Shown: positions 259 to 39,558 of the stretch, in pieces
Layout: every line of letters starts with the position of its first letter
Position numbering within the stretch: position 1 is the stretch's first letter
Assembly: GCA_033875315.1 (NCBI GenBank)
Contig: JANRJG010000026.1
Span: 1-64,000 of the forward strand
Length of the DNA stretch: 64,000 bases
Reading direction: 5' to 3'
Origin: Candidatus Methylacidiphilales bacterium
GTDB lineage: Bacteria > Verrucomicrobiota > Verrucomicrobiia > Methylacidiphilales > CAZTYG01
Translations under genes and position numbers: made by a program
The notes under the pieces: generated by a model
The model's input: only the letters and a program-made list of their open reading frames with translations
Databases searched by the model: none
Told to the model about the DNA's origin: nothing

Positions 259-1797
259 CTATTCCCACTCAATCGTCGCCGGCGGTTTGGAGGAGATGTC
301 GTAGCAGACACGGTTGACGCCCTTGACCTCGTTGATGATGCGGGTGGAAATTCTCCCCAACACCTCGTAAGGCATCTTGGCCCAGTCGGCGGTCATGGCG
401 TCCTGGCTTTCGACAATGCGCAGCGCGATGGTCCAGTCGTAGGTCCGTTCGTCGCCCATCACCCCGACGCTGCGCACGGGCAGGAGGACGGCGAAGGACT
501 GCCAGACCTTGTAATACCAACCGGATTGTTTCATTTCGTCGACCACCACGGCATCGGCGTTGCGCAGGATTTCGAGCTTTTCCTTGTCGATCGGTCCAAG
601 GCAGCGCACGGCCAGACCGGGGCCGGGGAAAGGCTGGCGCCAGACCATCTCGCGGGGCAGTCCCAGTGCCTCGCCGACGGCACGGACCTCGTCCTTGAAA
701 AGTTCTTTCAGGGGCTCGACCAATTTGAACTTCATGTTCTTGGGCAGGCCGCCGACATTGTGGTGCGACTTGATGAGGGCGGCGGGATTGCCGTCGATGG
801 CCACGCTCTCGATGATGTCGGGATAGAGGGTGCCCTGGCCGAGGAACTTGGCCTTGCCGACGGACTTGGTGGCGGCCTCGAAAACGCGGATGAATTCCCC
901 GCCGATGATCTTGCGCTTTTTCTCGGGGTCGGACACCCCTTTCAACTTGGTGAGAAACCGGGCCGAGGCGTCGACGACCTTGAGTTTGAGTCCGAGGCCG
1001 TTGGCGAAGATGCGCTTGACGCTCTCGACTTCCTTCGCGCGCATGAGGCCGTTGTCCACGAGGATGCAGACGAGTTGTTTGCCGATGGCACGGTGGATGA
1101 GGGCGGCGGCCACGCTGGAATCAACCCCGCCACTGAGGCCGAGGATGACGCGCTCGCCACCGACCTGTTCTCGGATGTCGGCGACGCTTTTGTCGATGAA
1201 CGACTCCATCGTCCAGGAGGGCTGGCAGCCGCAGACCTGAAAGACGAAATTTTTCAGGATGTCACGGCCGCGCGGGGTGTGGGCGACCTCCGGGTGGAAC
1301 TGCATACCGTAGACGTTGCCGTTCTGGACCACGGCATAGGGGGAGTTGTCGGTGGCGGCAACGGTCTTGAAACCCAAGGGGAGCTGGGTGACTTTGTCGC
1401 CGTGGCTGTTCCAAATGTCGAGCTTGCGGGGCAGGCCCTTGAAGAGATCGCAGTCGGTCTTGAGGTCGAGGACGCCGCGACCGTATTCGCGGTGTTCGCT
1501 GCGCTGGACCTTGCCGCCGAGGTGGTGGGCCAGCAGCTGCATGCCATAGCAGATGCCGAGGGTGGGGAGGCCCAGGGTGAAGATTTTTTTGTCGGGCTGG
1601 GGGGCCTTGCGGGCGTAGACACTGGCCGGACCGCCGGAGAGGATGATGCCCTTGGGTTGAAGGGCACGGATTTTTTCCGCCGGGGTGTGATAGGGTAGGA
1701 TTTCGGAATAAACCTGGCATTCGCGGATGCGGCGGGCGATGACCTGGGTGTATTGGGAGCCGAAGTCGAGGATGAGGATGCGGTCGTTGGGTTGCAT
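259..1797 (-). CDS. guaA: GMP synthase (glutamine-hydrolysing)
   Basis: This enzyme aminates XMP to GMP with glutamine and ATP in cytosolic purine synthesis. The 512 residues match the usual bacterial length of about 510-525. Residues 1-190 are a class I glutamine amidotransferase with Cys83 (GICYG) and His168/Glu170 (QFHPE) as the triad. The ATP pyrophosphatase domain has the PP-loop SGGVDSS at 222-228, and the C-terminal dimerisation domain ends in IEWE, as is standard for GuaA. It is the last gene of a leftward run and starts 8 bases after the stop of the zinc-ribbon gene. No guanine riboswitch-like leader is present, so expression probably comes from upstream in the operon. The frame is intact. 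Confidence 0.97.
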
Positions 1798-1805
1798 GAT
1801 GTTGT

Positions 1806-2039
1806 TCAGGGGAGAAAAGATTCGGGGATCGTGTTACGCACCCCACAGGAAGGGCAGCGGGTGTGGCGCATCTGGCCTTCGAACGGCACCGGTTGCGCGC
1901 AGATTCGGCAGGGAAAGGTGGGCCGGTCGCGCCGGAACTGACGCTGGGCGTTCCATAGGACAATTAACCATGCACCCAGAATGGCCGCAAGGAAAACCAA
2001 GACATAGACAACAAAGAAATCCGGGAGGCTGAGGGTCAT
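1806..2039 (-). CDS. Small membrane-anchored zinc-ribbon protein
   Basis: This is a 77-residue protein of unknown function. One transmembrane helix covers about residues 7-26, followed by a basic stretch and a treble-clef-like ribbon with the pairs CRIC and CPSC, which should bind one zinc ion in the cytoplasm. A longer frame extends upstream, but the ATG at 2039 overlaps the stop of the TonB-like gene as ATGA and puts the hydrophobic segment at the N-terminus, so I chose it. The position between tonB-like and guaA suggests co-translation with the energy-transduction genes. It could be an assembly or regulatory factor for them, which is only inference. Confidence 0.7.
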
Positions 2040-2806
2040 GGCTGTTTGGGCGTGGCGGGCGCGAGTTTTTCGTTGAGATCCCAGAAGATGGAAACCCGTC
2101 CCCAGTCGGACTCGGCCCCGCCACTGCGTGGATTGAACATCCATCCCTGCACGGCCTGCACCGCCGACTGGTCGACTGTGCCGTCACCGCAGGATTCCTC
2201 CACCACCGCGGAGATGACCGCCCCGCTGCGGTCGACACCGATTCCGAGAACGGTGATTTTCAGGGAGAGGTCGGTGCGGGGTTGCGGCAGACCCGGGCGG
2301 CTGAGAAGCTTGCGCTCGGCCAGCTTGCCCTCGGTGCGGAAGGTTGTCCCGCTCAAGGGGGGTGGGGATTCCACCCGGATGGGCATCGGATTGGGGGGCG
2401 TTCCTGTGATCAAACGGTCGGCCTGTTGGGACAAGGTGGCCGGAAGGTCGCGCGGGAGCGCAAAAGGCTTGGGGGGCGGTGCCATGGCGTTTTCCGTCCC
2501 GACGGCCGGAAGTTCCACCTCGGCCATGGAGGGTTCCTGTAGGGGTGTCCAAGGCAGGGCGATGGAGGTTGGATCACGCCAATCCAGCCACTGCGTCCAG
2601 TTATCTCCCATGGCCCCCTCGGACTGCAGACGGGGGTCGATGAATTTGAATTGCCGCGGACGATCGGCGTAGGCCCGGGTCTTGACCGGGTCGATGCGGA
2701 AGACCAGGAAACCCGCCATGTGGACAAGGAGGGAAGCAAAAATGATCAGACCGAGCCAGCGACGCTGGGGCGGCATGATTTGTTCCCAGATTTCATGGGG
2801 TGTCAT
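2036..2806 (-). CDS. TonB-like energy transducer
   Basis: This 256-residue protein has one N-terminal membrane anchor (about residues 16-38), a Pro-rich periplasmic linker and a C-terminal domain of about 80 residues. That domain contains VDRSGAVISAVV and AVQAVQGWMFNP, the pattern of TonB C-terminal domains that touch the TonB box of outer-membrane receptors. It lies 4 bases downstream of exbD, the classic exbB-exbD-tonB order, so it probably carries proton-motive energy from the ExbB/ExbD motor to the outer membrane. The C-terminal domain is divergent, so a TolA-like or related transducer is an alternative. No TonB-dependent receptor is in the window. Confidence 0.75.
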   Translation of the reverse strand: MTPHEIWEQIMPPQRRWLGLIIFASLLVHMAGFLVFRIDPVKTRAYADRPRQFKFIDPRLQSEGAMGDNWTQWLDWRDPTSIALPWTPLQEPSMAEVELPAVGTENAMAPPPKPFALPRDLPATLSQQADRLITGTPPNPMPIRVESPPPLSGTTFRTEGKLAERKLLSRPGLPQPRTDLSLKITVLGIGVDRSGAVISAVVEESCGDGTVDQSAVQAVQGWMFNPRSGGAESDWGRVSIFWDLNEKLAPATPKQP

Positions 2807-2810
2807 GGGT

Positions 2811-3218
2811 TCATCCCCCCGGCTTGGTGGCCACCACCACGGCCACGCCGGCTGACAAGGCCATGCTCATGACCTCGGTGACCAAACCGTGGGTCACCGC
2901 GGCATCGGCCCGCAGCACCACCGTCGCATCCGGCTTGGAACGGGCGATGCGGCGGAATTCGTTTTCCAGTTGGGCCAGATCGGTGACCTTGTCGTTGAGA
3001 AAAATCATCGGGGGATTCTGGGCCGAGATGTTGACGATGAATTGGATGTCCCGCACCCCGCTGTTGGAAACGCCCCGGGGGGGCGAAACCTTGATACCGG
3101 GCTGGAGGACAAAGCTGGAACTGAGGATGAAAAAAATCAGCAGCAGGAGAACCACGTCGATCAACGGGGTCATGTCCAGTGGACCCTGGAAAGCATGGAC
3201 AGAACGTCGCAGTTTCAC
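2811..3218 (-). CDS. exbD: ExbD/TolR biopolymer transport protein
   Basis: This 135-residue protein has a short cytosolic start and one transmembrane helix beginning DMTPLIDVVLLLLIFF. The Asp at the start of the helix (PLIDVV) is the proton-carrying residue conserved in ExbD/TolR. A periplasmic domain of about 90 residues follows, typical of the family. The ATG at 3218 overlaps the exbB stop as ATGA, so the motor subunits are translationally coupled. With ExbB it should form the proton-driven motor that powers the TonB-like protein encoded next. A TolR role cannot be excluded, because no tolB or pal is nearby. Confidence 0.93.
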   Translation of the reverse strand: MKLRRSVHAFQGPLDMTPLIDVVLLLLIFFILSSSFVLQPGIKVSPPRGVSNSGVRDIQFIVNISAQNPPMIFLNDKVTDLAQLENEFRRIARSKPDATVVLRADAAVTHGLVTEVMSMALSAGVAVVVATKPGG

Positions 3219-3895
3219 GGCTGTGCGGCCGGGAGCTTGGCCGCAACAACGGGTTCAGAGGCGGCGGCGGGACCGGATGAAAGCTTGAGCAACTGGACAA
3301 TCTCGATCCCGCTGCGTTCCATATCGGTGATAAGAGTGTTGAGGCGGCTGATGAGGTAATGGTGGGCCACATAGGCGGGGATGGCCACGCAAAGTCCGCC
3401 GGCAGTCGTGATCAGCGCTTCCCAGATGCCCCCGGCCAGATCGCTGATCGGTGCCGCACCCATGGAATGGTTCATGTTCATGAAGGTGGAAATCATGCCG
3501 ACCACCGTTCCCAGCAGTCCCAACAGGGGGGAAATCTGGGCGACCATCCCCAGGAGGGGCAGGTGGGCTTCCAGTGCGGGAACCTGGAGTTGGGCCACTT
3601 CCCGGGTCAATTCTTTCAGGTCGTCTTTGCCCAGGTTCCGTTTCATCAACGCCGCCTGCACAACCCGCACCGCAGGACCGTAGGCCTCGTCGCAACGCTC
3701 CAAAGCCTCCTCGTGTTTGCCCTGCCGGACCAGGTTCGCGATGCCTTTGAGAAAGGGCTCCACCGGCATCGAACAACGGTGGAAGTGGATCAAGCGCTCC
3801 ACGAACACCCCCAGACCGACAACGCTGCAAGCAAAGAGCGCCCACATGATCGGGCCGCCCAACTGGATGATTTCAAAAACTCCGGAGGTCGTCAT
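3215..3895 (-). CDS. exbB: ExbB/TolQ/MotA-family proton channel subunit
   Basis: This 226-residue inner-membrane protein has three predicted helices: about residues 12-35, then after a cytosolic loop about 105-140, and about 155-180. The conserved stretch PLLGLLGTVVGMISTF is the MotA/TolQ/ExbB signature. It should form the pentameric proton channel around ExbD. It heads the exbB-exbD-tonB-like set and follows a small secreted-protein gene by 37 bases. The C-terminal tail is rich in Ala and Pro and looks unstructured. The ExbB rather than TolQ assignment rests on the TonB-like neighbour. Confidence 0.93.
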   Translation of the reverse strand: MTTSGVFEIIQLGGPIMWALFACSVVGLGVFVERLIHFHRCSMPVEPFLKGIANLVRQGKHEEALERCDEAYGPAVRVVQAALMKRNLGKDDLKELTREVAQLQVPALEAHLPLLGMVAQISPLLGLLGTVVGMISTFMNMNHSMGAAPISDLAGGIWEALITTAGGLCVAIPAYVAHHYLISRLNTLITDMERSGIEIVQLLKLSSGPAAASEPVVAAKLPAAQP

Positions 3896-3932
3896 GGACT
3901 GGAATCAGGGGTGGGGTGGCCGCTGGCCGGGA

Positions 3933-4541
3933 TCACCAAACAAATGAACGTTCCTGCGCCACGATCTTGCCATCACGGACCACAGAAATCCGCCAGGAGT
4001 GGACATCGCCATATTCACGATATTCCTTCCCCGTGACTGAAAAGGTACCCTTGAACGATCCCCGGGCTTTGGGGAACGGAATCTCCAAGGTGCGCACTTG
4101 ATCACGGGTCGCCGACTGGCGGTAATCCAGACGCAGGACAAAATCCGCCACCGCACCGTGGTTGGCCCAAGACACAACGAAATACTGTCCCCGACGGCCC
4201 ATCCTCTGCGACTCAGTGATGGCGCCGTGGTCGAAGTACTTGAATTCGTAGGCCAGGGAGCGGCTTTTGCCGGCCGAGGTTTTTTCGGGATCGTTGAGGA
4301 AATCGTAAATTTTGCGGATCGAGACGACCTTGTCCGGTTCCACAGCCAGTTCCCAAGGCTGGTTGCCTGCGGCTGATTTCTCCACCTCCACCGGTTGTTC
4401 GGCGGCGCTGGCAGCCGGTTTTTGCTGGCCCTCGCCTTCCGCATTGAAGGCGGCCCCGGATGACTCCGGAAGCTTGGCTTCCTCCGCCCGGCACATGGGC
4501 ACGGTGAGTAACAGGGCCAGTATCAGGAAAACGCTGCGCAT
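3933..4541 (-). CDS. Secreted protein of unknown function
   Basis: This 202-residue protein begins with a clear signal peptide (MRSVFLILALLLTVPMCRAEE, cleavage near residue 19). A longer open frame exists upstream, but the ATG at 4541 places the signal peptide at the N-terminus and clears the rsmI stop. After a low-complexity Ala/Glu/Pro region (25-60) comes a domain of about 130 residues rich in beta-prone segments. I recognise no family. The position between rsmI and exbB suggests a periplasmic accessory of the Exb/TonB motor, but nothing in the sequence proves this. Confidence 0.75.
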   Translation of the reverse strand: MRSVFLILALLLTVPMCRAEEAKLPESSGAAFNAEGEGQQKPAASAAEQPVEVEKSAAGNQPWELAVEPDKVVSIRKIYDFLNDPEKTSAGKSRSLAYEFKYFDHGAITESQRMGRRGQYFVVSWANHGAVADFVLRLDYRQSATRDQVRTLEIPFPKARGSFKGTFSVTGKEYREYGDVHSWRISVVRDGKIVAQERSFVW

Positions 4542-9756: not shown

Positions 9757-10883
9757 GCACTATCCCCGATCTAAATGCCGATTCCACGGTCTACCTCTTC
9801 GACGGACGCCAACAAAATGGCCCCATGCCTTACGCCGACCTGTGGGCCCTGGCCCGTTCCGGCAAGCTGCCCAATCACGCCTTTTTCTGGTCCCCCGGCA
9901 TGGCCGACTGGCTCCCGGTCAGCCGCCTGCCCGTCCTACGCACCCCAGGCGTCACTGCCTCACCCTGCGTACTCGTCATCGACGATGATGTCATCATGTC
10001 GGAGATGATCTCGGAATTGATCCGACAGCATAAAATCGAGGCTGTGACCGCCGACGACTTCGGTCCCGCCTGCCAGATCCTCGAAGAGCGCGGTTTGGAC
10101 AAATTCGACGCCGTCATCACCGACTTCGAAATGCCCGGTGGCACGGGCGTGGAATTGGTCCGTTGGATCAAGCAGCGCGACCGCTCGCTCCAGGTCATCA
10201 TGCTCACGGCCCAGGACAACAAGGAAGTGGTCAAGCTTTCGCTCCGCTCCGGGGTGGTCGATTTCCTGGAAAAACCCGTGCGTAAATCCGCCCTCATGAA
10301 CGCCCTGGATTCCGCCATCAGCCAGACCCTCCGCCAGCGCGAGGAACGGGCCGCCTTCATGGAAATGGTCCGCCAGCGCCTCGTCGGCAAGGGCGTCCTT
10401 GCTGAACAGGTGATGAAGGAGCTGATCTTCCGGGAATCCGGCCTTTCCAACCTTCTGACCAAGCTTGATGCCATCAGCCGGTATACCGCCCAGCTCGAAC
10501 AGTCCGGCACCTCCATCCTCCCCGGCTCCGAAGTTCCCCAGGGTTCCGGCCCCTTCAGCGGTGTCTTGGGCGAGCTCAGCGTCATGGACATCCTCCAGAT
10601 GCTCATCCAGTCCCACAAAACCGGTGAGCTCAAAATCTCCCGCACCGACCGCACCTTCGTCGGCTCAGCCTACCTCGACGACGGCAGCATCATCCACGCC
10701 GCCTCCGGTCCGGACCAGGGACACGAGGCCCTCAAGAGCCTGTTGCAGTGCAATCGTGGTTACTTCAGCTTCGATTACGGCTCCGAACCCCAGCGTCGCA
10801 CCATCCAAGCCCACGGCATCTCCTCCCTCCTCCAGGTCACCTCGGAAATCGACATCAAAAAAGGCAGCCTCGTTGCCGCCTGA
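9753..10883 (+). CDS. Response regulator with GYF_2, REC and DUF4388-like domains
   Basis: This 376-residue protein has an unusual three-part layout. Residues 12-65 form a GYF_2-type module (VYLFDGRQQNGPM and later WSPGMADWLPV), thought to bind peptides. Residues 70-190 are a receiver with Asp124 in VITDFEMPGGTG and the conserved Lys in LEKPVRKS. After a helical linker, residues about 270-370 match a DUF4388/PATAN-like domain (FSGVLGELSVMDILQML and GELKISR), found in regulators that act through protein contacts rather than DNA. It starts inside the stop of the hybrid kinase (ATGA), so it is the likely phosphorelay partner. There is no DNA-binding domain. Confidence 0.85.
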
Positions 10884-10925
10884 ACAGTTGCATTGCCCGC
10901 CGATTAGCCTACAACAAGCGCATTC

Positions 10926-11300
10926 ATGAGCCGAATATTGATCATTGAAGACAGTGACTCGATGCGCGAGCAACTCGTCATGCTTCTATCAGACCTGAAC
11001 CACAACTTATCGACCGCTTCCAACGGGCTCGAAGCGGTGCAAGTTGTGCGCCAGTCCGCCCCCTTCGATCTCATGATCACCGACATGTTCATGCCCGAAA
11101 TGGACGGCATTGAGGCCATCGAGCAGATCAAGTCCCTCCAACCCGACATCAAAATCATCGCCATCTCCGGCGGCGGATTGGGCATGTCCGGTGCCGCCAT
11201 GCTGGAGATTGCCGACGGACTCGGGGCCCAGAAGACCCTGCCCAAGCCTTTCCAACCGGAAGAACTGCGGCTGGCGGTGGAACAAGCCCTGGCCGCCTGA
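10926..11300 (+). CDS. Single-domain CheY-like response regulator
   Basis: This 124-residue stand-alone receiver has the acidic start LIIEDSDSMREQL, the phosphoacceptor Asp53 in MITDMFMPEMDG, the switch residue in KIIAISGGG and the conserved Lys in TLPKPFQPEEL. It contains no output domain, so it should relay phosphate or act by protein contact. It lies 42 bases after the GYF_2 regulator in the same direction and probably belongs to the same phosphorelay. No chemotaxis genes are nearby. Confidence 0.9.
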   Translation: MSRILIIEDSDSMREQLVMLLSDLNHNLSTASNGLEAVQVVRQSAPFDLMITDMFMPEMDGIEAIEQIKSLQPDIKIIAISGGGLGMSGAAMLEIADGLGAQKTLPKPFQPEELRLAVEQALAA

Positions 11301-11403
11301 ACCCACCTCCCTTCAATCAATGGAGTGGGATTAAAAAAAGTCCGCGCCTCGGTTTCCACCTTTCCGCATTGGACTCCCGCCCAAATAGCCGTATTCCAGC
11401 AGG

Positions 11404-13365
11404 GTGTTCGAGATTCTCAACCGCCTCGTCCTGCCCGATACCTGGCAGGCCGAGGCCATCCAACACGCCCGTTCCGGGCGCGATGTCGTCCTCGACGCCC
11501 CAACCGGGGCCGGGAAGACCTTTGTGGTCGAGAAACTCGTCGATTCCGGAACCTATTCCCGCCAGGTCATCTACACCGCACCCACCCGTGCCCTGGCCAA
11601 TGACAAATTCGCCGAGTGGAAGCGCAAAGGGTGGCGGGTGGGGATCACCACCGGCGATCTGACCCTCGACCCCGACAGCCCGGTCCTCGTCGGCACCCTG
11701 GAGGCCGTCCAACGCCGGGCCCTCGATGCTCCCCCCGATCTCCTCGTGCTGGATGAGTACCAATGGCTCGCCCATCCCGAGCGGGGCAACCACTACGAGG
11801 GCCTCCTCATGGCCCTGCCCACCCGCGTCCGCCTGCTCCTGCTCAGCGGATCGGTGGCCAATCCGGGCGAAGTCACTGCATGGCTGCGCCGCCTCGGCCG
11901 CGCGGCCGAGACCGTCAGCCACCGCGAACGCCCGGTGCCGCTGGAGGAAGTCGACGGCGACGCCCTGGCCAAGCGCGTCCCCAGTGGCATTGAGGGATTC
12001 TGGGCCCGCTGCCTCACCGGCGCTCTGCGCGACGACCTCGGTCCCGTACTCGTCTTCGCCCCCCACCGGAAAGACGCTGAAAAAATCGCCCGCGGCCTGG
12101 CCCGCGAACTCCCACCCTGCACACCCTTGGAGTTAAGTCCGGATCAACTCGCTCTCGCCGGCACCGATCTGGCCCGGGTGCTGTCCCAGCGGGTGGCCTG
12201 GCACCACAGCGGCATGACCTACACCCAGCGCGCCGGACTGGTTGAACCCCTGGCCAAAGCCGGACAATTGCGCGCGGTCGTCTCCACCCTCGGCCTCGGC
12301 TCCGGCATCAACTTTTCCCTCCGGTCCGTCCTCATCACCCAGGGGACCTACCATCAGGACGGCGTCCCCCGCGACATTCCTCCCCAGGACATCCTGCAAA
12401 TGGCAGGCCGGGCCGGACGCCGGGGAAAGGACGAAATCGGTTACTTCATCGCCACCCGCAACGCCCCACGTCTCGGCCAGGGGCGGGCCATGCCCCTCAA
12501 ACGCGCCCCCGCCCTCCCCTGGGCCGTCCTCCTCCGCTCGATCGGTTCCGCCGACGACCCACGCCAGGAATCCCTCCGCTGGGCCGGTCGCTTTTTCGCC
12601 CGTGAACCGCTGCGACTGGGCTGCGAACAAACCCTCGGCGACGATCCCTCCCAACTGCCCTGCCGCCTGGCCACCGACACCGCTCGGGCCCGTCTGGTCC
12701 GTCGTTCCAAGCGTCCCTTCAAGCCTTGCCGCACCTGTCCCCAAAGGTCCCAGTGCCTGCAACTACCACCCGGTCCCACCCTCCTCTGGCAATGGACCCG
12801 TGCCGGTTTGCTCAACAAATCCCTCCGCCTGACTCCGCGCGGGGCCATCGTCTCCTCCTTCCTCGGCCCCGAGGGACTGGCTCTGGCCGCCATTGTCGAA
12901 GATCCCAACTACGAGCCCGCCGAGGCCATCCTCGATCTGATCAATCTCTTTGCCGGCGACCGCTTCGCCGGAGCCGAACCCCGCTGGGCCGGACCCCTGG
13001 CCCGGAGCTGTCAGAAAATCTACGGCAACCTGCAAATCGACGGCTACCTCGAGAGTGGTGTCCCGCCCACCTATGGCTTCGGGGCCTGCCAGATCCTGCG
13101 CGATCTCCTCAACCGCCAGCAACGCAAGGCCCAGCTCGCCGGGGAACACGCCGGGGTGGGTGACATCGACCGTCTGCTGATCGAATGGCGCAGCCTCCTG
13201 CGCCAGATCCTCGCCGCCCCGCCTGTGGAACTCCCACGATGGAACGAACTCCGCGAACAGGCGGGCCACTGGCTGGAATTGTCACCCGCCCCTCCCCCCG
13301 TGGAACTCCCCCCGCTCACGGCCTCGCAAACCGGTCCCGTCAATCACCGCATCCGCTGGGGCTGA
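11404..13365 (+). CDS. Ski2/Mtr4-like SF2 helicase with C-terminal cysteine cluster
   Basis: This 653-residue protein starts at GTG 11404. Motif I is APTGAGKT (32-39), motif II is DEYQ (117-120, in place of DEAD/DEAH), motif III is SGS, and motif VI is QMAGRAGRRG (about 332-341), the form seen in Ski2-like RNA/DNA helicases. Residues 407-451 contain Cys407, Cys420 and then Cys442-x2-Cys445-x5-Cys451, a spacing known from Fe-S clusters of Cas4- and AddB-type nucleases. The C-terminal 200 residues are helical and not recognised. The gene lies between a response regulator and sulP with no close partner, so its substrate is unknown. Confidence 0.85.
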   Translation: MFEILNRLVLPDTWQAEAIQHARSGRDVVLDAPTGAGKTFVVEKLVDSGTYSRQVIYTAPTRALANDKFAEWKRKGWRVGITTGDLTLDPDSPVLVGTLEAVQRRALDAPPDLLVLDEYQWLAHPERGNHYEGLLMALPTRVRLLLLSGSVANPGEVTAWLRRLGRAAETVSHRERPVPLEEVDGDALAKRVPSGIEGFWARCLTGALRDDLGPVLVFAPHRKDAEKIARGLARELPPCTPLELSPDQLALAGTDLARVLSQRVAWHHSGMTYTQRAGLVEPLAKAGQLRAVVSTLGLGSGINFSLRSVLITQGTYHQDGVPRDIPPQDILQMAGRAGRRGKDEIGYFIATRNAPRLGQGRAMPLKRAPALPWAVLLRSIGSADDPRQESLRWAGRFFAREPLRLGCEQTLGDDPSQLPCRLATDTARARLVRRSKRPFKPCRTCPQRSQCLQLPPGPTLLWQWTRAGLLNKSLRLTPRGAIVSSFLGPEGLALAAIVEDPNYEPAEAILDLINLFAGDRFAGAEPRWAGPLARSCQKIYGNLQIDGYLESGVPPTYGFGACQILRDLLNRQQRKAQLAGEHAGVGDIDRLLIEWRSLLRQILAAPPVELPRWNELREQAGHWLELSPAPPPVELPPLTASQTGPVNHRIRWG

Positions 13366-33350: not shown

Positions 33351-35048
33351 TCAGTCCGCCAGGTTACCCGCCCGGCTTCTGCTGTAGCGACACCAAAAAG
33401 CAAGACCCAGGAAGGCGGCCTCCAACAATACAAACCCTGCGACCATGGGGAACCCACCGGTGCCGAATCCGTAGCTGTGCAACCCCTTGCCCAGAATGAA
33501 GTTCACCCCGTACCAAGCCATGACGACCGATTGGAAGGCCAGAATGCTGCCGACGGCCAGACCGAATCCGCCCCACCATCCGGCGATGCGCCCGTGGAGG
33601 ATGGCCAGGTAGCACAGGAAAGCGATCAGCGCCCAGGTTTCCTTGGGGTCCCAACCCCAGAACCGCCCCCAGGAGTAGTTCGCCCAGACCCCGCCCAGGA
33701 TCGTGCCTGTGCCGATGAGGAAAACCCCGATCTGGAGACAACGGTAGATGTACTGGTGCAGTTGCGGTTCGACCTTCCGGCCCAGGATCAACTTGCCGAG
33801 GGCGATGTGCGAGACCCCGAGGGCCAGGGCCAGCGGGGCGTAGCTGCTGACAATGGTCAAGACATGCACCACCAGCCAGAAGTTGTGGCGCAGAACTGGA
33901 ACCAGGGGTTGGATCGATCCGTCAAGAATGGTCGGCTGGGTGTCGGCCAGGATAAGGGAGAGCACCGCCACTGGAAGGGCCCCTAGGAGGAAGTATCGTC
34001 CGCGATAAATCAACTCAAAGACGAGCGCAGTGACCACCACAATGTAAGCCACCCAGATGACCGTTTCGTACATATTGGTCACCGGTGGGCGTCCCGAGAC
34101 CAGCACCCGCAACACCAAGCCGGAGGTTTGCAGCAACATACCCAGTCCGGCCAGAAGCCAGCCCGCGCCATAGCCCAAGTGCCGCCCCCAAGAGGGAGTG
34201 GCGACCAGCACCACGAAAGCCAACACATAGACGATCCAGGCCCAGGTCACCGGACGCCCCTTCTTGTACAGCCATTCCAGATGGATGATCCCCGCAGTTG
34301 GATAGTGCTCCGGTGATAGGCCGGCCACCCGTGCCTCGAAATCCCGCACCGAAGATTCCCACTGGACCGCATCCGTTCCGTCATAGGCCCGGACCAGGGC
34401 CTGGAAGGACTCCATCAGGGGACGGAGGGTTTCCAACGGGTAATGATCCCCGGCATTTTCCAGGGTGGCCCAGGTGCCCTCGCGCTTCTTGGGGTCAGGT
34501 ATCCAACGGAATGCCGATCCCGAGAGGATTTCCTCCATCAGGTTGATCCGACCCGCCACTTGGTTGGCCGCCTGTTGGTCGCGGGTTAGGGTGGCCTGGG
34601 CATTCTTTCTCCGGACAGCCGCCGCCTCCGCGGCCATGCTCGCCAATAATTTATTGGAGGTGAGCTCTTCGAAGGAAAAGTGGCGGCGGTCCAGGTCGTT
34701 GCCGGTATAGCCCAATGCCTTCTTCAGCGGGATGTAATCCATCAGGATGACGGGCCGCGATGTCCACCGTTCCGGATGGAGCCAGGCGTCGACCACCACC
34801 TGCATGGCCGTCCAACGCCCCCCCTCACCCGCCGGGTCCTCCCAGTGTGTGGACCCGGAAATCGCCCGCCATTGGTCGACGGCGTAGGCAAAAAGCGGCT
34901 TTTTCCGCCCTCCGTGCTGGATGGGCATTTCTTCCAGAACGCGCAGTGGCAGTGAGGACGGTAGGGACGGTCGCGCGGAATCCGCCGCAGGGGCGGAAAG
35001 GGCCAGGCAGAGCAGGAGGCCGATCGGGGAGAGGATGTTTGTTTTCAT
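33351..35048 (-). CDS. ccsA: System II cytochrome c maturation protein CcsA/ResC with N-terminal extension
   Basis: This 565-residue inner-membrane protein carries the WWD haem-handling motif WGRFWGWDPKETWALI (about 458-473) and conserved His residues in flanking helices, the hallmark of CcsA/ResC. With ResB it exports haem and attaches it to CxxCH apocytochromes in the periplasm. A signal peptide (residues 1-22) and a soluble periplasmic region of about 220 residues precede the eight-helix core, giving a length well above the usual 320-390. The ATG at 35048 overlaps the resB stop (ATGA). It is the last gene of the copper-ATPase/resB/ccsA unit. Confidence 0.9.
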   Translation of the reverse strand: MKTNILSPIGLLLCLALSAPAADSARPSLPSSLPLRVLEEMPIQHGGRKKPLFAYAVDQWRAISGSTHWEDPAGEGGRWTAMQVVVDAWLHPERWTSRPVILMDYIPLKKALGYTGNDLDRRHFSFEELTSNKLLASMAAEAAAVRRKNAQATLTRDQQAANQVAGRINLMEEILSGSAFRWIPDPKKREGTWATLENAGDHYPLETLRPLMESFQALVRAYDGTDAVQWESSVRDFEARVAGLSPEHYPTAGIIHLEWLYKKGRPVTWAWIVYVLAFVVLVATPSWGRHLGYGAGWLLAGLGMLLQTSGLVLRVLVSGRPPVTNMYETVIWVAYIVVVTALVFELIYRGRYFLLGALPVAVLSLILADTQPTILDGSIQPLVPVLRHNFWLVVHVLTIVSSYAPLALALGVSHIALGKLILGRKVEPQLHQYIYRCLQIGVFLIGTGTILGGVWANYSWGRFWGWDPKETWALIAFLCYLAILHGRIAGWWGGFGLAVGSILAFQSVVMAWYGVNFILGKGLHSYGFGTGGFPMVAGFVLLEAAFLGLAFWCRYSRSRAGNLAD

Positions 35049-36919
35049 GGGGAGGTGGTGGATTCCGGAGCGGAAGCGTTTGTCGGGGGAGTTCGGGGAT
35101 TTCGTGGCTTGAGATAGAACATGGCAAAAATGCCACCGCAAATCAGGAGCGATCCGATCCACTTCAGCGACCATCCGGGATCATGCAAAACTTGGAGGGT
35201 GGTGGTGTCGAGCTGGTCCGGATCCCAGCCGGCCTGGGAAAACTTGTGGTTCCATCCGGTCAAGGCCCCCCACCACCCCGGGGGATAACTGGCCGGGGTG
35301 TTCATCTCCACCCGCGCCCTCACCGGTTGCGGCGAGGCCAGCCCATCAAAGCGGACATCGCTGATGAAATTCGACGGTGTATCGGTTCCCTCATCGCGAG
35401 GCACGGTGAAGTCTTCAAGGGAAACCGTGAAGTCCAGCCGGCGTGTTTTCAACCCGAATCCGACCCGCACGGCTTGGTCTCCATTCTCCAGCACCTTGGA
35501 AGTGCCGGAAGGAATCCAAACCGCCGTTCCTTTGCTCCCATTCGCATGGACCAGGGCGGCCTCGATCCCGGGAACGCCCTTGGCCGTGCCCATGCCGGAC
35601 GCCGGCACGGGTTCGGCCACCGTGCGGATGCGGGCATGCGGATGGAAGGTCTTGAGGGTGGCCTTCCAGTCGGCCCAACCGGTGAAAAAGGAATCTCCCG
35701 GACGCACCCGGCCCTGGCCGGTCAATTTGCTTCCACGCAGGATCTGGTAAGCCACCATACCTCCCTCCACCGGGGCCATGCGCATGACCGGTGATCCGCC
35801 GCGGTCTTCCTCCCATTTGCCCGTCAAGGTCACCAGCATCGCCGGATTGTCGGGCCGGTCCCCGTCAGACACCGGCTTGCCATCGACCATGCGCAGATTG
35901 GCCCAGTATTGTGCAAGGTGGATGCGGAATCCGGATTCCGGGTCGTTGAAAGGACGGTCCAGTATCTCGCCCAACGGCTTGGTTTCGCTCCTCCCCCCGG
36001 GGTGGACGATCAGGACCCGCCCTTCGCCAGTTGCTCCCACCTCGAGGCGGAATTGGAACCCGGTGGCCTTGCCCAGGGTGTTGTGCCAGACCGGTTGGTC
36101 AGGCATGCGTGCGAAAACCATGTGGGTTTCGCGGAATTCTTTCGCCGCCTTGGCCGCCGGGCGGGCCACGGCGGGAAGTTTCTCCACCCATTCGATGCGG
36201 GCACGGCCGAAAAGATCGTAGCTGCGCGTCTCCACCGGAGCGAGCGCCAACGGGATGTGCAGGGTCTGGTTCATCATGGCGGTGGCCATCTCCAGTTCAA
36301 TCCCCGCCGGTCCCGTTCCAGATGGGTCGGCCTCGACCACCGCCCGCACGGAAAGGTTTTCGGAGTAGTCCCGCACCTCCACTGCCAGGTCGGAATCGGG
36401 CACGGGCATGGTGCGCGGACGATCCGGGCGCGGTACCCGCACTACCACCGGCAGGGGAGCCTCGTACATCAGTCCCGAACCCGGACTCTCCACCAGGAAC
36501 ACCGTCTCGTCGACCACGAGCATGCCGGTCGGTTCCCCTCCTTTTTTCAAGGTTGTCGTGCCTTCATAACCAAAATGGCGCCCGATGACCGCACCTGCCA
36601 GCATGAGGATGATCCCGGCATGGGTGACCACAAATCCCGTGTGCTTGGCCTGCCAGGGCCAGCGGGTCAGGGCCGCACAGGCCAGGTTGACCACCAGCAG
36701 GGCCAGCCATAGCGAGAACCAGGGGTTGTCGTAGATGTAATACTTCGCCACCTTGATGTTGAACTTCGACTCGGCAAAGGTGGCGGCGGCGCAGGCCAAC
36801 GCCACCGTGAGCAACAGGAAGACTGCAAGCTTGAGCGAACCGAGGGCGTGGATGGCACGCCAGAATTCCGAGCGTTGCTGGCGCTCGCGCACCAAGTGGC
36901 GGTGTGCGGTCTCGTTCAT
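35045..36919 (-). CDS. resB: System II cytochrome c maturation protein ResB/Ccs1
   Basis: This 624-residue protein has N-terminal helices (about 27-50 and 68-88) and a third near 93-113 (TGFVVTHAGIILMLAGAVIG). A periplasmic domain of about 450 residues follows, and a final helix lies near the C-terminus, the plan of ResB/Ccs1. SLKLAVFLLLTVALACAAATF at the start is typical of the family. It would form the ResB-ResC haem-ligation complex with the next gene. Both its start (inside the ATPase stop) and its stop (inside the ccsA start) are 4-base overlaps, so stoichiometry is probably set by coupling. Confidence 0.88.
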   Translation of the reverse strand: MNETAHRHLVRERQQRSEFWRAIHALGSLKLAVFLLLTVALACAAATFAESKFNIKVAKYYIYDNPWFSLWLALLVVNLACAALTRWPWQAKHTGFVVTHAGIILMLAGAVIGRHFGYEGTTTLKKGGEPTGMLVVDETVFLVESPGSGLMYEAPLPVVVRVPRPDRPRTMPVPDSDLAVEVRDYSENLSVRAVVEADPSGTGPAGIELEMATAMMNQTLHIPLALAPVETRSYDLFGRARIEWVEKLPAVARPAAKAAKEFRETHMVFARMPDQPVWHNTLGKATGFQFRLEVGATGEGRVLIVHPGGRSETKPLGEILDRPFNDPESGFRIHLAQYWANLRMVDGKPVSDGDRPDNPAMLVTLTGKWEEDRGGSPVMRMAPVEGGMVAYQILRGSKLTGQGRVRPGDSFFTGWADWKATLKTFHPHARIRTVAEPVPASGMGTAKGVPGIEAALVHANGSKGTAVWIPSGTSKVLENGDQAVRVGFGLKTRRLDFTVSLEDFTVPRDEGTDTPSNFISDVRFDGLASPQPVRARVEMNTPASYPPGWWGALTGWNHKFSQAGWDPDQLDTTTLQVLHDPGWSLKWIGSLLICGGIFAMFYLKPRNPRTPPTNASAPESTTSP

Positions 36920-39558
36920 GAGGATGCCCTTTCCCGTGTTTCGTCCCAAAGCCTGGGCCCGCAGACCACCAGCATGGCCAGGAACATCCCCGCCGTCATG
37001 GCAGAGAACGAGGCCAGCAGTTGCCATTGTGGACGGCCCGGGAACCAACCCATGACCGCCCAGGCCCCCCCTTGCATGCCCAACCACATGAAGGCCAGGC
37101 AAACCAACCAGAGCCAGTCCCAATGACGTGGTTTGGAACGGTGTCGCGCATCCCACCAGAATCCCGGCAAGGCCCCCGCCACCATGCCCAGATGCATCCA
37201 GCCAGGGGTACCTTTGAGAACCTCGACAAAATGCCCCGGGCTGCAGCCGCACAAGCACAGACCATCGCGGACCGCCGGCCCCCAACCCGCATCCCCCCAC
37301 CATCCCGCGAGCATGCCCGCGTTGCCCGCAACGACCATGATGACAAAGGCCGTCCGAAAGGGATGGTTCAGCCAGTGCTGGCGTTGGCTCCAAAGAAGCA
37401 ACCCGGCCAGCAGGAATCCTCCCAGCAGAGCAGTGGCCCAAAGACCCGTGTATCCACCCAAATAAACCAGTGCCGCCCCTTGGATCGACAAAGCCCCCGC
37501 CGCAAACATGGCCGCCAGACGTTGCCGCCGGAAATTCTCCCCCCCGATGCGTTTGTCTTGTCGCACCGGTTTTTCGCCAGACTCCGTATCCTCCAAGCCC
37601 AAGAGGGCACGGCTCGAAACGGTCAGGCTGGAAGCCAACATCAGCACCGCCGCAGCCACGGGATGAAGCCAGCCGGCCATGGCCAGACCAATGCCCAAGA
37701 AATTGTAGACGGCGGCGATGGCCAAGTTTTGGCGGATTCTCCGGACCACCCGTCGGGACATCCGGATCGCCTCCGCCAAACGTCCCAGATCGTTGCCGAA
37801 CATCTCGGCATCAGCCGTTTCACGACCCAGAGCGGATCCCGAGACCAGGGCCACGCTGGCTTGGGCCGCAGCCATGGCCGGCGCATCATTCACCCCATCG
37901 CCCACCAGGAGCACTTTGTGTCCTTGCTCCTGCCATTCGCGCACCAACGAGGCTTTATCTTCCGCACTCAATCCGGCATGGACTGCGGTAAGACCGAGGG
38001 CCTCTGCAGCACCGGGCCGGTCCCCCGTCATGACAGCCACCCCGACCCCGAGTGCACGCAGGTCGGCCAACACCCCGGGCGCGGATGCCCGCAGATTCTC
38101 CCGCAACAAGGCCAAGCCAGCCAGCACGCCATTGCGTCGGATGACCACCCAGCGACACGCCTGAAGTCCGGGGGAAGATAGCGCTTCTTTCCATTCATCC
38201 ACCAACCTGGAATCCCCGGGTTGCAGAAGGGTCTCATTGCCCAGTTCCACTTCCTGGATGCCTTGCGGCGTCACCACCCGAGCAGCGACTCCACAAGCGG
38301 GCATGACCCGTACCCCGCCCTCGACGACGACCCCCTTGGATTTCGGCCAGACGCGGAAGGCCCGGGCAACCGGATGGTCCATATGGTCCTGGATTGCCGC
38401 CACTTCCGCCTCCAGCAGTCGCCGGTCGGTCCCCGGTGCCGACACCCAATCGACCACTTGCAAATGTTCCTCGCTGAGCGTCCCGGTTTTGTCGAAAACC
38501 ACCCGGTCAATTCCAGCCAGTCGCTCCACGAAGTCGCCGCGGCGAGGCACCAAACCCTGGCGGGCCAGGCGGTTGGCCGCCCCCCAAAGGGCGATGGGTG
38601 TGGCCAAACCCAGGGCACAGGGACAGGCCACCACCAACACCGCCAGACCCCGGAAAAGGCCGGTGGTCCAATCCAGTTGCCAGGCCCAGAACCCCCCGGT
38701 CAACAAGGCCAGCACAAGGACCACCGGCAGGAACCAGGCCACCACACGGTCTGCCTCACGTTGCAATGGAGAAACGAGGGACAATGTGGCCTCGACCGAA
38801 CCCAGAAGACGGTCGATCTCGCGGTTGTGACCATCGTGTTGGGCACGGACGATCAGGGCGGCGTCGATCACTTGGCCGCCCGCCCGGACGAGGTCGCCCG
38901 CACGCCTGACCATGGGAAAAGGTTCCCCGTTCAGGGGGGTTTCGCTGACCCATGCCGTTCCCTCCTCGACCTGACCGTCCACCGGCACCCCCGAACCGGC
39001 CCGAACGCGGACCCGGTCGCCCCGGGAGATCGCGGCCACCGGGACGGTCTCCTCCCCGTCCCGGTCATCCAAGCGCACACAGGTGTCAAAGTCGCGTCTC
39101 AGCCCCGAGGCCGCAGCCAGGACATGGCGGCGTTGGCGTTCACCCACCAGGCGCCCCAGGCTGTAAATGGCCAGGAGGACCGATACGACTTCGTAGTAAA
39201 CACTGCCCGTGCGCGTCAGGGAGCTGACCACCGAGGCCCCGAAGGCGGCCAGCACTCCGGCCAGGAAAAATTGTTCGATGGCGGCCCGTCCCCGCCGCGC
39301 CTGCGACCAGGCCGTGCGGGCCATGGGGAGGCCGACCAGGAGAAAAACCGCCAATGCCGCCAACGCCAACAAGCCGTGAAGGATGAGATAACTCGCGCTT
39401 TCCGGGCGGTCGAGGTTGACCGCCAGACTGAACACCATCGATTGCCCGGCGATCAAAGCTGCCAGACCGAGGCGTAGCCAGTGGCGGGCCTGTTCCTTGC
39501 GGTCCTCTACGCAATGCCCCTGCATGGGAGAGACCGGAGTGCCGCAACAAGAGGACAT
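36916..39558 (-). CDS. Copper-type P1B ATPase with extra C-terminal membrane domain
   Basis: This 880-residue protein starts at ATG 39558. It has the Cu(I) set: CPC (312-314) in helix 6, YN (618-619) in helix 7 and M640-x2-SS in helix 8, plus DKTGT with Asp356, HP (395-396), TGD and GDGVND (553-558). There is no HMA domain. A short Cys-rich start (SCCG, Cys16) replaces it. The actuator loop reads NGE rather than TGE (210-212). After the normal end at about 655, residues 676-870 add about six helices and a CLCGC motif (768-772). Coupling to resB suggests copper export or delivery for cytochrome assembly, like CtpA/FixI proteins. Confidence 0.88.
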   Translation of the reverse strand: MSSCCGTPVSPMQGHCVEDRKEQARHWLRLGLAALIAGQSMVFSLAVNLDRPESASYLILHGLLALAALAVFLLVGLPMARTAWSQARRGRAAIEQFFLAGVLAAFGASVVSSLTRTGSVYYEVVSVLLAIYSLGRLVGERQRRHVLAAASGLRRDFDTCVRLDDRDGEETVPVAAISRGDRVRVRAGSGVPVDGQVEEGTAWVSETPLNGEPFPMVRRAGDLVRAGGQVIDAALIVRAQHDGHNREIDRLLGSVEATLSLVSPLQREADRVVAWFLPVVLVLALLTGGFWAWQLDWTTGLFRGLAVLVVACPCALGLATPIALWGAANRLARQGLVPRRGDFVERLAGIDRVVFDKTGTLSEEHLQVVDWVSAPGTDRRLLEAEVAAIQDHMDHPVARAFRVWPKSKGVVVEGGVRVMPACGVAARVVTPQGIQEVELGNETLLQPGDSRLVDEWKEALSSPGLQACRWVVIRRNGVLAGLALLRENLRASAPGVLADLRALGVGVAVMTGDRPGAAEALGLTAVHAGLSAEDKASLVREWQEQGHKVLLVGDGVNDAPAMAAAQASVALVSGSALGRETADAEMFGNDLGRLAEAIRMSRRVVRRIRQNLAIAAVYNFLGIGLAMAGWLHPVAAAVLMLASSLTVSSRALLGLEDTESGEKPVRQDKRIGGENFRRQRLAAMFAAGALSIQGAALVYLGGYTGLWATALLGGFLLAGLLLWSQRQHWLNHPFRTAFVIMVVAGNAGMLAGWWGDAGWGPAVRDGLCLCGCSPGHFVEVLKGTPGWMHLGMVAGALPGFWWDARHRSKPRHWDWLWLVCLAFMWLGMQGGAWAVMGWFPGRPQWQLLASFSAMTAGMFLAMLVVCGPRLWDETRERASS

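Follow-up and report, generated by a model that had tools for sequence, protein, structure and literature searches.

Two unrelated proteins, Cox11 and Caa3_CtaG, have been proposed for the assembly of CuB, the role of Caa3_CtaG being tentative (PMC9145763), and a review lists as open how copper passes from the pump into the periplasm and which chaperones take part (PMC7558416). CcoA and CalT, which feed the cbb3 oxidase, bind Cu through MxxxM motifs in their membrane helices and need these motifs for Cu uptake (PMC6362234). Fusions of copper-trafficking membrane proteins have been described as well. An engineered fusion of SenC, a membrane Cu chaperone, to the C-terminus of CcoI was fully functional in vivo (PMC8475189), and natural fusions of copper-trafficking membrane domains include CtaG-CopD and Sco with a CtaM-like domain (PMC13344008). 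In the window, by which the whole 64,000-nucleotide stretch of DNA that was analysed is meant here, a copper ATPase was found to carry a membrane domain at its C-terminus (Table 1).

The ATPase part looks like an ordinary P1B-1 Cu(I) enzyme, for which Cu(I) transport is predicted from the family motifs. The reading frame runs on the minus strand from the ATG at 39558 to the stop codon TGA at 36918-36916. In the initial annotation the Cu(I) ATPase was taken to be complete at about residue 655, and this was borne out: the match to TIGR01525 (heavy metal P-type, 394 bits with a cut-off of 346.25) stopped at residue 653, the CPC, YN, MxxSS, DKTGT and GDGVND motifs were invariant, and Pfam (PF00122 and PF00702) and NCBIfam recognised a P-type ATPase alone, to about residue 653. 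The score for TIGR01511 (copper subfamily) was 338, under its cut-off of 397. When the full-length AlphaFold model was compared with the PDB by Foldseek, LpCopA was matched (E 1e-36, 28% identity, 675 columns), with 4bbj the best match and 3rfu also found. No N-terminal metal-binding domain (PF12156 or HMA) was detected in the window ATPase by the Pfam and NCBIfam search. Its N-terminus (39510-39558) has a short MSSCC...C; the oxidase-linked relatives L089, L102, L104 and L101 have a FixI-like CxxC...CCYGC, and the ATPase of L101 gave a PF12156/HMA trace below threshold. Judged from these sequences, the resB-linked branch of the ATPase seems to have a reduced metal site at the N-terminus. In the actuator domain, TGE was changed to NGE at residue 210 (38929-38931), where T is nearly invariant among relatives.

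Table 1. Positions of the copper ATPase, its C-terminal domain and the adjoining genes in the window.
Feature	Position	Strand	Remarks
P1B-1-type Cu(I) ATPase and the six-helix domain at its C-terminus	36916..39558	-	880 aa, single ORF, ATG start (MSSCC)
CPC metal site, TM6, residues 312-314	38617..38625	-	invariant in 25 homologues
DKTGT phosphorylation motif, residues 356-360	38479..38493	-	invariant, 25-sequence alignment
GDGVND motif, residues 553-558	37885..37902	-	G553, D554, G555, N557, D558 invariant
YN of TM7, residues 618-619	37702..37707	-	invariant, 25-sequence alignment
MxxSS of TM8, residues 640-644, closing the ATPase proper	37627..37641	-	M640, S643, S644 invariant
Extra C-terminal domain (tail), residues 655-880, six predicted membrane helices	36919..37596	-	kept in 35 aligned tails
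WWGDAGWGPAVRDGLCLCGC segment, last part of tail helix 3 with the predicted periplasm-facing loop (C768/C770)	37243..37302	-	Cys pair conserved
MxxxM of tail helix 4, M788 and M792	37183..37197	-	invariant
MxxGM (MxxxM) of tail helix 5, M824 and M828	37075..37089	-	invariant
MxxxMxxxM of tail helix 6, M854, M858 and M862	36973..36999	-	invariant
resB, System II cytochrome c maturation	35045..36919	-	PF05140, E 1.4e-18; ATGA overlap with ATPase
ccsA	33351..35048	-	PF01578, E 2.5e-28; TIGR03144, E 3e-45, under cut-off; ATGA overlap with resB

The AlphaFold model of the tail (pLDDT 85.3, pTM 0.80) gave six long helices, at 19-47, 51-70, 79-102, 133-148, 156-184 and 189-225 in tail numbering, in agreement with the approximately six membrane helices first noted. 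The tail was kept in 34 homologues at 24-36% identity to that of the window, so it is no chance extension, and conservation across Verrucomicrobiota orthologues, a point raised by the initial annotation, was thus found. Over the 35 tails, 29 columns were at least 85% conserved, and nine of these were near-invariant methionines. This strongest signature of the tail had been missed initially; besides the methionines of Table 1 it includes M741 and M749 of helix 3. In a full-length alignment of 25 sequences, Met occupied 9 of the 17 invariant columns of the tail, and just two invariant columns (M41 and M640) in the ATPase part. Many of the tail methionines are adjoined by conserved glycines (G173, G203 and G207 in tail numbering). 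No conserved histidine was present in the alignment of 35 tails, and haem ligation or relay was therefore not supported; of the copper or haem relay that had been suggested for the tail, the copper half fits the conserved Met and Cys.

The CLCGC motif was located at residues 768-772 (37243-37257), as annotated, with conservation limited to its first two cysteines among the homologues from genome contigs (C768 in 35/35, C770 in 34/34). Some further relatives have CSSCC, SCC or SHSCCH in its place. Within the WWGDAGWGPAVRDGLCLCGC segment W753, D756, A757, G758 and C768 were invariant and C770 nearly so. The C-terminus of P1B ATPases is cytoplasmic. Lys and Arg were few in the TM1-2 and TM5-6 loops of the tail and more frequent in TM2-3, TM4-5 and at the C-terminus. 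Given the cytoplasmic C-terminus of the ATPase and the positive-inside rule, the tail would start in the cytoplasm and the loop with the Cys pair, between helices 3 and 4, would face the periplasm. Internal duplication of helices 3-4 and 5-6 was a hint at most (hhalign probability 13%, E 0.002).

Residues 655-880 had no family match in Pfam, NCBIfam or PDB sequences, and Foldseek with the AlphaFold model found no relative of the fold in PDB or BFVD. Homology to the membrane helices of the ATPase itself was rejected by profile comparison. Caa3_CtaG (PF09678) had no Pfam match to E 10 in 17 tails, and homology to CtaG was also rejected by profile comparison (hhalign probability 0.2%). Single-sequence scans of viral contigs and genome contigs gave no match, nor did plasmids, and no paper describing such a tail was found in the open-licence literature. 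These results support the six-helix fused domain as a new conserved domain, present in two phyla and without a described relative in the libraries searched, as the initial annotation had supposed for this Cu(I) ATPase.

Tail homologues were collected from about 45 genomes of Verrucomicrobiota and Planctomycetota. The full-protein search of 286 genomes of the class found a homologous tail in 18 genomes from many families, and the orthologues in other genomes of the class stopped after MxxSS. The tail was present in 7 of 62 genomes of the order and in 3 of 388 genomes drawn evenly over the phylum. When about 85,000 species genomes were scanned with the alignment of tails, 35 loci were obtained, again in Verrucomicrobiota and Planctomycetota, the carriers in the latter being Gemmataceae and Zavarzinella formosa. 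At every locus with enough sequence the tail formed one protein with this ATPase. The class, the order, the phylum draw and the species genomes yielded no tail gene standing alone, nor were the stand-alone homologues beside resB/ccsA found that had been envisaged. A weak tail-HMM match of 181 aa at the tailless locus L037 (E 0.011) was without the Met/Cys motifs and was rejected. In L046 (G427, 1583-4329), the tail-bearing ATPase was broken over two or three frames, with some of the tail read in another frame; these frameshifts are possibly an assembly error. In the tree of the ATPase part, tail-bearing proteins fell into three major groups separated by tailless proteins. Four changes are required, and two or more of these lie on well-supported branches. 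The simplest reading of this tree would be that the fusion is old and was lost several times, and multiple gains are possible. Since many close orthologues are without it, the tail is dispensable for the pump.

The ATPase lineage is associated with oxidase gene clusters. The genes ccoN and ccoO (COX1 and FixO) adjoin the ATPase in L089 and L102, ctaA adjoins it in L054, the run in L055 is coxB, ctaA, ATPase with tail, resB and ccsA, and alternative complex III genes lie alongside the tailless ATPase of L039. Many tail-bearing loci had no oxidase gene within the stretch fetched, and no cbb3-type oxidase gene was found by the ATPase within the window. By its likely role the ATPase resembles CcoI/CopA2-like pumps of oxidase assembly, yet it is without the N-terminal domains of CcoI. 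In the reading that we prefer, at about an even chance of being right, the protein would be a Cu(I) pump of the CcoI/CopA2 kind that serves the assembly of respiratory oxidases and has a Cu(I) acceptor of its own, embedded in the membrane, fused to it. To judge by its family motifs, the ATPase would carry Cu(I) from the cytoplasm to an exit on the periplasmic side, where it could be caught by the Cys pair in the loop between tail helices 3 and 4 or by the ladder of nine conserved methionines, which would descend helices 3-6 below the Cys pair. The tail would then hand Cu(I) to the copper sites of the oxidase, most plausibly the membrane-buried CuB, directly or through SCO. Here we infer the binding of Cu(I) by the tail, the direction of transfer and the target site.

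The gene order in the window allows another partner. As annotated, the ATPase, resB and ccsA form an operon with 4-base overlaps: ATGA overlaps were read in the sequence between ATPase and resB (36916-36919) and between resB and ccsA (35045-35048), the two genes being supported by PF05140 and PF01578. As resB also follows the ATPase in ten genomes with the tail, and a CxC pair could be redox active, the tail might couple the pump to cytochrome c maturation; ResB/CcsA would then receive copper, haem or thiol redox equivalents from it. However, four tailless ATPases (L064, L065, L066 and L069) also precede resB, so the resB link is a trait of one ATPase branch and not of the tail. Most tail-bearing loci have no resB adjoining the ATPase, and some tail-bearing ATPases come after oxidase genes instead. 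The tail is without a conserved histidine, and System II is not known to use copper. The specific link to the cytochrome c machinery drawn initially was therefore not upheld, and a role of the tail in this pathway is the least probable of the explanations considered. In L055 (11376-12848) and L068 (5780-7258), ResB was cut to about 490 aa, with the counterpart of residues 255-375 of the window ResB (about 120 residues) missing.

The motifs of the tail itself can be read in two further ways. MxxxM helices are the hallmark of the CcoA/CalT importers (PMC6362234), copper import for oxidase assembly is known, and a path through the membrane could be built by six helices; the tail might then be a copper importer or copper-sensing gate with a CcoA-like function, which brings Cu from the periplasm into the membrane or cytoplasm, from where the attached pump would export it again. 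Unless the two were coupled, an importer fused to an exporter would run a futile cycle. By the predicted topology the Cys pair would lie on the side of Cu(I) release by the pump, and the family and fold searches gave no similarity of the tail to known transporters; we regard this reading as improbable. The other way is structural or regulatory, through oligomerisation, lipid contact or tuning of pump turnover, with the Met/Gly pattern reflecting helix packing of a GxxxG-like kind (GMxxGM). The glycines beside many of the methionines and the several lineages that keep the pump without the tail agree with such a role. But packing is not expected to fix Met at nine positions over 24-36% identity, or to conserve the Cys pair, W753 and D756, and we regard this explanation as unlikely, although the GMxxGM pattern could in part be helix packing and limits the acceptor reading to that extent.

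The tail may also stand in for a factor of copper insertion that is a protein of its own in related bacteria. Caa3_CtaG was found in 0/18 tail-bearing and 10/17 tailless genomes of the first set (Fisher 1e-4, kinship ignored), and in 5/44 tail-bearing and 20/28 tailless genomes when a second set, whose tail-bearing genomes came without completeness values, was added (Fisher 3e-7, kinship ignored). The exceptions were the five tail-bearing genomes with CtaG and eight tailless genomes without it. Family f85 (G331 and G424), tailless within a mostly tail-bearing branch, has CtaG. With just 2-4 phylogenetically independent tail/CtaG contrasts the paired test had no power, and the pattern is thus not significant once relatedness is counted; the complementarity is in the expected direction and is a lead, not a result. 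Cox11 and PCuAC were absent from all 35 genomes with this ATPase and are therefore uninformative as contrasts. At least several of these 35 genomes have A-type or cbb3 oxidases. Replacement of SCO by the tail was also considered; SCO was present in 13/18 tail-bearing and 16/17 tailless genomes, with no clear exclusion. In L130 (1351-3690), L131 (1420-3711) and L134 (4268-6529), Caa3_CtaG was fused to a C-terminal membrane part, and ORFs of about 760-800 aa at the CtaG matches of L132 and L133 were the same kind of fusion. This C-terminal part has ferredoxin-like Cys clusters (CxxCxxCxxxCP) and looked CcoG/NapH-like by eye, Pfam giving CtaG alone. Such a fusion of CtaG with a putative cupric reductase would be of interest in itself.

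The genome of the window encodes two oxidase systems. At a distance of about 125 kb from the ATPase, the contig of the window carries an A-type oxidase cluster with alternative complex III, COX1, COX2 and CtaA, and a COX2-like ORF of the genome bears a CxxxCxxxH motif. Cox11 and Caa3_CtaG were both absent from this genome despite the full A-type cluster. The cbb3 cluster (L123) has a ccoI-like ATPase of its own, with the N-terminal domains PF12156 (1.2e-8) and HMA (3.3e-4). At this locus (10749-13160) one 803-aa protein combines CcoN and CcoO (COX1 and FixO), and ccoG-like and ccoI-like genes lie beside it. An SCO protein is also encoded. With the separate ccoI-type ATPase by cbb3 and the SCO protein, this genome has other routes of copper supply. 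A replacement of Caa3_CtaG by the tail would explain how Verrucomicrobiota like this organism keep an A-type oxidase cluster without both proposed CuB factors. A further step is tentative, possible rather than probable: besides Cox11 and Caa3_CtaG, heme-copper oxidases would have in the tail a third kind of insertion factor for CuB (or CuA/CuB), and as it is joined to the pump, a single machine would both export and insert the copper. The natural fusion of a pump with a probable membrane acceptor offers a single-chain system in which transfer of Cu(I) from the pump exit to CuB could be tested.

The protein can be compared with several known systems. It shares the Cu(I) P1B-1 motifs with CcoI/FixI, the CopA2-type P1B-1 ATPase of cbb3 assembly, its relatives adjoin ccoN/ccoO or ctaA/coxB, and the N-terminus of the oxidase-linked relatives resembles FixI; in contrast, the window ATPase has a short Cys-rich N-terminus and the extra six-helix tail, and the separate ATPase beside cbb3 in its own genome is the more typical CcoI. 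The fold of the ATPase part is that of LpCopA, which has no domain after TM8. With the CcoI-SenC fusion (PMC8475189) it has in common a membrane copper acceptor, putative in the tail, at the C-terminus of an oxidase-assembly Cu ATPase, whereas that fusion is artificial and SenC, an SCO protein with a membrane anchor, is unrelated to the tail. Like CcoA/CalT, the tail has MxxxM in membrane helices, but those importers have an MFS fold with MxxxM and HxxxM, and the tail has neither a conserved His nor an MFS match. Caa3_CtaG, for which insertion of CuB into A-type oxidase has been proposed, is likewise polytopic in the membrane, and its genomic distribution is roughly complementary to that of the tail; it differs in having no sequence similarity to the tail by profile comparison and in not being fused to the ATPase.
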